Below, one piece after another: positions 36,963 through 37,412 of a stretch of DNA of 64,000 nt; position 1 is the stretch's first letter; each line of letters begins with the position of its first letter. The DNA comes from Pseudomonadota bacterium (GTDB lineage: Bacteria > Pseudomonadota > Gammaproteobacteria > Xanthomonadales > Rhodanobacteraceae): NCBI GenBank assembly GCA_029561145.1, contig JAKQJM010000057.1, forward strand, positions 124,001-188,000, in the 5' to 3' direction. A program made the translations under genes and the position numbers. The notes under the pieces were generated by a model. It was given only the letters and a program-made list of their open reading frames with translations. It did no database searches and was not told where the DNA came from.

Positions 36963-37412
36963 ATGGCTGCATCCAGATTCGTCGATCCCTACATCGAACA
37001 CGGCCTGAAATCATCGGCCGTAAGAAAAATTACGGTATCGATTCCACTGCACATACTTCGACTACTGTCCGACGAACGGACCCGGCGCCAGGTCGCCAAC
37101 CTGCGCCACGCCACAAACAGCAATCTGCTGTGCGAAGCATTTCTTCACGCTTTTACTGGGCAACCACTGCCAACTGACGAGGAGTTAAGACGCGATATGG
37201 CCACCAAGAAAGCAACTGCAAAGAAGAAACCTGCTGCAAAGAAGCCCGCTGCCAAGAAGGCCGCGAAGAAAGTGGTAGCCAAGAAGGCTCCCGCAAAGAA
37301 GAAGACGGCCAAGGCGAAAAGCGCCACGGCCGTGAAGAAGGCTCCGGCGAAGAAAGCTGCTGCCAAGAAGGCGCCAGCCAAGAAGGCTGCAAAGAAAGCT
37401 GCGAAGAAGTAA
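36963..37412 (+). CDS. metJ: MetJ-type methionine repressor with histone H1-like C-terminal tail
   Basis: 149 residues. Residues 1-78 are a MetJ ribbon-helix-helix repressor: VRKITVSIPLHILRLLSDER, RRQVANLRHATNSNLLCEAF and LHAFTGQPLP are nearly identical to E. coli MetJ. The MetJ C-terminal helices are replaced from residue 79 by about 70 residues made almost only of Lys, Ala and Pro (AAKKAPAKK-like repeats), as in histone H1-like proteins and AlgP. An ATG at codon 79 (37197) with GAGGAG 12 bases upstream could make the tail alone. MetJ uses S-adenosylmethionine as corepressor for met genes. Tandem met boxes and a strong promoter lie upstream. Confidence 0.88.
   Translation: MAASRFVDPYIEHGLKSSAVRKITVSIPLHILRLLSDERTRRQVANLRHATNSNLLCEAFLHAFTGQPLPTDEELRRDMATKKATAKKKPAAKKPAAKKAAKKVVAKKAPAKKKTAKAKSATAVKKAPAKKAAAKKAPAKKAAKKAAKK

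Follow-up and report, generated by a model that had tools for sequence, protein, structure and literature searches.

The methionine repressor MetJ is a textbook regulator with one compact architecture. Its corepressor S-adenosylmethionine (SAM) sits on the face of MetJ opposite to the DNA and works mainly through its positive charge, according to the portion of the source used here (PMC1282579). For the order Xanthomonadales, the portion of the study by Leyn et al. on which we draw describes the regulator SamR and gives no MetJ for their four Xanthomonadales genomes (PMC4239095). No description of a fusion between MetJ and an H1-like protein was found in the open-licence literature, including that on Xanthomonadales, Rhodanobacter and Dokdonella. 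Here we analyse a gene of this kind, in which the point new with this analysis is a frozen stretch of 45 nt before an internal ATG.

A MetJ core joined to a Lys/Ala-rich tail

The gene occupies positions 36963..37412 of the forward strand of the window (the whole 64,000-nucleotide stretch of DNA that was analysed) and encodes 149 amino acids. Its open reading frame is MetJ-like to about residue 77, has a Met at position 79 and is rich in Lys and Ala from there to the C-terminal end. The Pfam MetJ model (PF01340) matched residues 5-88 with 130.3 bits (cut-off 25, E 2.6e-38), the NCBIfam MetJ equivalog model matched the protein with 135 bits (cut-off 110), and the solved E. coli MetJ chains (PDB 1cma/1mj2) aligned by sequence over residues 4-87. 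On these matches the ribbon-helix-helix core is placed at residues 1-77 (36963..37193, forward strand). Judged by the curated models, the fusion protein is a MetJ, and the description given in the first-pass annotation, a MetJ core followed by a Lys/Ala tail, stands, the tail being 71 residues long. The same annotation had named two findings that would overturn its reading, a separate intact metJ elsewhere in the genome combined with a fusion that never binds met boxes, and a sequencing or frameshift artefact. A whole-genome search (assembly 99.4% complete, 149 contigs) found no second MetJ, the fusion being the only PF01340 match, and an artefact is excluded because the fusion is carried by 59 of 59 examined genomes of the family.

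The E. coli-type C-terminus is absent from the fusion protein, with the Lys/Ala tail in its place. It is also missing from the MetJ proteins of two further families of the order, f12 (four genes), where the protein ends within a few residues past LPTDEEL, and f9 (two genes), where the ends are short and different. Since these tailless proteins lack it too, the E. coli-type C-terminus was probably lost in the MetJ of this order before the tail was gained, and it is not a defining trait of the curated MetJ models. An AlphaFold model of the fusion protein reached a mean pLDDT of 49.7, too poor to judge the SAM pocket.

MetJ was found in 65 of 99 genomes of the order, the source genome counted, namely in all 59 of its own family, four of f12 and two of f9, and not in the other 34 order mates; all 59 family genomes examined carry the Lys/Ala-tailed form. 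The tailed form was mapped within the order only, and of 185 genomes sampled across the class 2 had MetJ, the source genome included. The suggestion in the first-pass annotation that related Lysobacterales may share the fusion is borne out for one family, by every genome examined there.

The tail (71 residues, 37197..37412, forward strand), a candidate nested in-frame gene, was recognized by its composition and by weak HC2 and H1-like matches. In the 59 family genes its length varies from 41 to 310 residues (median 99) and its composition is 37% K and 35% A, with synonymous codons mixed. Acidic residues are entirely lacking in 42 of the 59 tails, so that the basic, Lys/Ala-rich and almost acid-free composition is that of H1-like proteins. 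The HC2 model matched weakly (E 0.00079, 20 bits, below its cut-off of 40), as did hist_H1_lk_Burk (25.3 bits, below its cut-off of 80); by sequence, then, the tail resembles H1-like proteins in composition, yet stays under the cut-offs of their curated models. The tail is probably disordered and strongly basic, it probably binds DNA, and it begins with MATKK, like a free H1-type protein.

A search for a separate H1-like gene gave one weak match in this genome, in an 866-aa frame (E 0.002), with a sensitivity so low that the metJ tail was missed too; some HC2 match was present in 11 of the 12 genomes searched. In G014, the one genome that lost the internal ATG, a separate 457-aa frame has HC2-like matches of 46 and 40 bits (G014:C1:668012-668941; L199, L208), and such frames also occur in other family genomes.

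A frozen 45-nt element within the coding sequence

The codon comparison identified an intragenic element of 45 nt, GCTTTTACTGGGCAACCACTGCCAACTGACGAGGAGTTAAGACGC (37149..37193, forward strand), whose synonymous sites are nearly invariant in the family. It contains GAGGAG (37179..37184, forward strand), a predicted internal Shine-Dalgarno sequence by conservation and predicted anti-Shine-Dalgarno (anti-SD) pairing, and 12 nt separate this hexamer from the ATG of codon 79 (37197..37199, forward strand), which conservation marks as a predicted second start. In 40 divergent members, the 14 codons before the junction read GCT TTT ACT GGG CAA CCA CTG CCA ACT GAY GAG GAG YTR AGA. Twelve of them have a codon identity of 0.78-1.0, where 0.26-0.58 is expected, and only the codons for Asp (0.55) and Leu (0.50) drift. 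Across 12 codons at the junction the identity reaches 0.89, whereas 124 gcvH windows taken from those species (29 in all) average 0.62 and never exceed 0.72; this comparison took the 29 of 59 genes with gcvH inside the fetched stretch and ignored four sparse tail windows (11 comparisons each) that scored 0.91.

Of the 59 unselected genes, which provide the unbiased counts, 58 retain GAGGAG, 58 the ATG and 55 AGA. CAA is followed by CCA in 52, CAA in four, AAA in two and CCT in one; the residue may thus be Pro, Gln or Lys while the third base is A in 58 of 59. Because the residue at this place varies while the third-base A stays, the sequence comparison indicates a constraint that acts on the nucleic acid, not on the protein. 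The single exception (L047) has GACGAG for GAGGAG, AAG for AGA and GTG for ATG; it was left out of the nucleotide profile, which covers 39 genes.

A pattern scan of genome contigs gave at least 118 stretches. The 118 listed all lie in frame within metJ, and all continue into K-rich sequence except three (L097, L100 and L121) that end at the junction. Among these, GAGGAG is present in 118 of 118, ATG in 117 of the 117 assessable (L121 ends before its ATG) and AGA in 113, and the codon after CAA may also be TCA or ACA, although the selecting pattern itself fixes part of the element, including that third-base A. The 118 loci come from 74 distinct stretches and overlap partly with the 59 genes, 45 lying outside them, and the pooled set is biased. 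Carriers among the matches listed include Dokdonella, Rhodanobacter, Dyella, Luteibacter, Frateuria, Tahibacter, Oleiagrimonas and Mizugakiibacter, and PF01340 is present in all of the 120 proteins listed among 977 related ones. Some contigs of metagenome-assembled genomes (L097 and L108) stop right at the element, as would be expected if a near-identical stretch of co-occurring species breaks short-read assemblies.

Allowing up to three mismatches, a 22-mer core of the element occurs as a single copy in 35 of 36 family genomes, with one match in the reversed control, and was not found in 24 order mates. A repeated or mobile element was rejected on this single copy and on the position of all 118 listed matches within metJ. 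The codon patterns also prompted the idea of an overlapping frame or leader peptide, which was dropped, as no conserved start was seen and the onset of constraint is abrupt. A likeness to hammerhead or S-box cores was seen by eye only and was likewise dropped, and internal stem pairing lacks support, some members having TACC for TGCC without a change of the partner (by eye). Rfam searches of 36600-37600 (E up to 5) found nothing, and those around metJ in five members of the family found nothing credible, with two weak matches at E 0.27 and 0.53.

Probable initiation at the internal ATG

We then consider whether the element serves to start translation of the tail. Relative to synonymous shuffles, a window of 72 nt with the internal ATG at its centre is predicted to be less structured, with a mean fold-energy z of +2.31 in 19 species (20 of the 59 genes, L047 kept out of the mean), while L047 itself has a z of -1.97. 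For the unpaired probability near this start the rise is smaller (mean z +1.30; L044, -0.45). In a sliding control with 14 of the 59 genes, the energy z is highest at the ATG (+2.41) and falls on either side: upstream it ranges from -1.44 to +0.11 at 18 codons and beyond, and 24-30 codons downstream it is below zero. Against this signal, an AT-rich block folds less on that ground alone.

The predicted anti-SD energy averages -8.3 at the internal ATG, whereas the main metJ start has -5.5 and background stretches have -2.1; counting against an internal start, 23% of synonymous shuffles match this pairing strength. A gap of 12 nt between GAGGAG and ATG is longer than usual, and in some members it is 9 nt. 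The features expected of a nested gene, namely a conserved internal start, a Shine-Dalgarno sequence and nucleotide-level constraint, are all found here. The first-pass annotation had proposed that this ATG may start a separate H1-like protein; its retention in 58 of 59 genes, the peak of the fold z and the frozen codons now mark it as a probable start, and internal translation of the tail is likely on these comparative and predicted grounds.

The principal alternative is that only full-length MetJ-H1 is made, that the element influences elongation or the message itself, for example as a pause or as an RNA or DNA site, and that Met79 is the scar of an old fusion. Conservation does extend further upstream than a ribosome-binding site requires, and over roughly its first 24 nt the element is more conserved than initiation explains, which counts against initiation as its sole role. 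A Shine-Dalgarno-like GAGGAG together with the rare codons AGA, CCA and GGG could slow ribosomes, and the MATKK at which the tail starts would suit such a scar. Against this alternative, predicted structure is weakest around the ATG, exact codon spellings are kept where selection for slow codons would permit other rare codons, and the ATG, present in 58 of 59 genes, changed along with the element in L047. The GTG of L047 is still a possible start, which weakens L047 as evidence. Weighing both sides, we consider production of the full-length protein alone unlikely, but the most serious of the competing explanations.

That the element is an intragenic promoter or a transcription-factor site giving a separate transcript of the tail appears improbable. 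Such a site would fit the constraint at the nucleotide level and an imperfect dyad, GGCA-N5-TGCC, noted by eye in part of the element; but TACC replaces TGCC in several members, the element is present in a single copy per genome, and no sigma-70-like promoter was found in 36200-37800 by a scan that also missed the promoter of metJ itself.

Met boxes and the predicted regulon

Box scoring placed three tandem met-box-like octamers, GGACGTAT GGACGTAT GGACGTCC, at 36775..36798 (forward strand), a predicted MetJ operator. The first-pass annotation had pointed to this site, and it proves to be conserved: 54 of 59 family genes have their highest-scoring triple box between -165 and -192 relative to the metJ start (a first look took in 57 of the 59), whereas 192 of 2950 shuffled upstream regions had theirs between -167 and -192. 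The mean score is 16.5 of 24, against 12.5 in the shuffles. The frames that precede metJ (34722-36278 of the window) look, by their motifs, like gcvT and gcvH; glycine-cleavage genes adjoin metJ in relatives too, for example at L047.

The exact pattern GACGTMYRGACGT has three matches in the genome, two overlapping ones at metJ and one at C129:12347, and the reversed control also has three. The box at C129:12347 precedes a MetX-like gene (265.7 bits with the best model, cut-off 296), with a SAM riboswitch between the two. At this locus (L221, G000:C129, outside the window), where the tandem met box and the SAM (S-box) riboswitch were seen at 1362-1507, a single gene would thus be under two SAM-sensing controls. 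G009 (L238) shows this pairing too.

If one mismatch is permitted, the source genome has no excess of tandem boxes over the reversed control (9 against 10). Among relatives the corresponding counts are 13/1 in G009, 17/10 in G005, 10/7 in G025, 28/6 in G012, 22/19 in G014, 3/12 in G022 and 10/4 in G016. Met-box enrichment across the family is uneven, as counts that range from 13/1 to 3/12 make plain. Boxes in relatives precede metE (G016), aspartate kinase genes (G009 and G005) and a cysB/cysK-like pair (G009). Eleven box places in G015 include one at metJ, one before an NlpA-type lipoprotein gene (MetQ family), two before TonB receptor genes and one before a frame that resembles cysJ by eye, with no clear target seen for the other six. 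At metE of G016 (L231, 1501-1726) the one-mismatch tandem box stands immediately before a cobalamin riboswitch. In the source genome, a one-mismatch tandem box at G000:C39:22175 (L239) lies within the end of a dnaG-like gene, some 330 bp upstream of an aspartate kinase-like gene, and the identical 16 bases occur at G009:C3:144609.

Tandem boxes as expected for a MetJ repressor are therefore found in 54 of 59 metJ upstream regions, at the metX-like gene and at metE and aspartate kinase genes of relatives, and a repressor function of the MetJ-H1 protein is likely from this sequence evidence. In the cited portion of a study of Rhodanobacter thiooxydans FW510-R12, nitrate raised the MetJ protein and lowered four methionine enzymes (PMC12146267); this evidence consists of published protein levels, and the presence of the tail was read in other genomes of the family. 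The idea that the protein is now a general nucleoid protein and no longer a methionine repressor could draw on the very long tails of some members (310 aa past the core), but it is very improbable given the conserved boxes before metJ, those at metX, metE and aspartate kinase genes and the opposite changes of MetJ and the four enzymes in FW510-R12.

Discussion

The explanation that we favour, with moderate confidence, is a MetJ-type repressor that carries an H1-like tail and whose gene holds a conserved internal ribosome-binding site and ATG, likely to start the tail alone. From family membership and the positions of the boxes, the MetJ core would bind the tandem boxes before its own gene as well as those before metX and other methionine and sulfur genes, with SAM as the presumed corepressor. 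The basic tail would add contacts with DNA of any sequence, so that binding may become stronger or spread. A strongly basic tail could also alter the electrostatic switch by which SAM acts on MetJ. A free tail from the same message would be a small H1-like nucleoid protein, and its source, the metJ message, is predicted to be under the control of MetJ itself. The element retains the Shine-Dalgarno-like GAGGAG and, by folding prediction, an open start region, and a further factor may read its 5' half.

A bolder extension, which we offer tentatively, is that one message yields a methionine-sensing tailed repressor and a free tail, and that a factor reading the element sets their ratio and couples SAM to compaction family-wide. 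If true, SAM supply would be tied to chromosome compaction throughout one bacterial family. The swap of the MetJ C-terminus for an H1-like tail makes it testable whether such a tail causes a site-specific repressor to spread, and mutations can be aimed precisely at the frozen stretch, where they could uncover a nested gene or a new kind of regulatory site in coding sequence. Both the unusual tail and the frozen stretch are easy to miss, because the proteins of source-named relatives among the matches listed are simply called MetJ.

Among known systems, E. coli MetJ (PF01340) shares the core (residues 4-87), the tandem octamers and the boxes at metJ and methionine genes; it differs in having its own C-terminus, where the protein described here has a 71-residue Lys/Ala tail and its gene a probable nested start. 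SamR controls methionine genes in the same order of bacteria but is, in the part of the source consulted, a different, SahR-like regulator (PMC4239095). AlgP of Pseudomonas aeruginosa and Hc2 of Chlamydia are, as far as the cited portions describe them, repetitive in Lys and Ala and variable in length, like the tail (PMC9239181, PMC2848022), whereas here the H1-like sequence is joined in frame to a specific repressor and stays under the H1-model cut-offs. A shorter second protein from an in-frame internal start, as proposed here, is described in the cited portions of the reports on Cas11b (PMC11899642) and the CTP1L endolysin (PMC4777826). Compared with those cases, the short form predicted here would be a repressor's DNA-coating tail, and an unusually long frozen stretch precedes its start.
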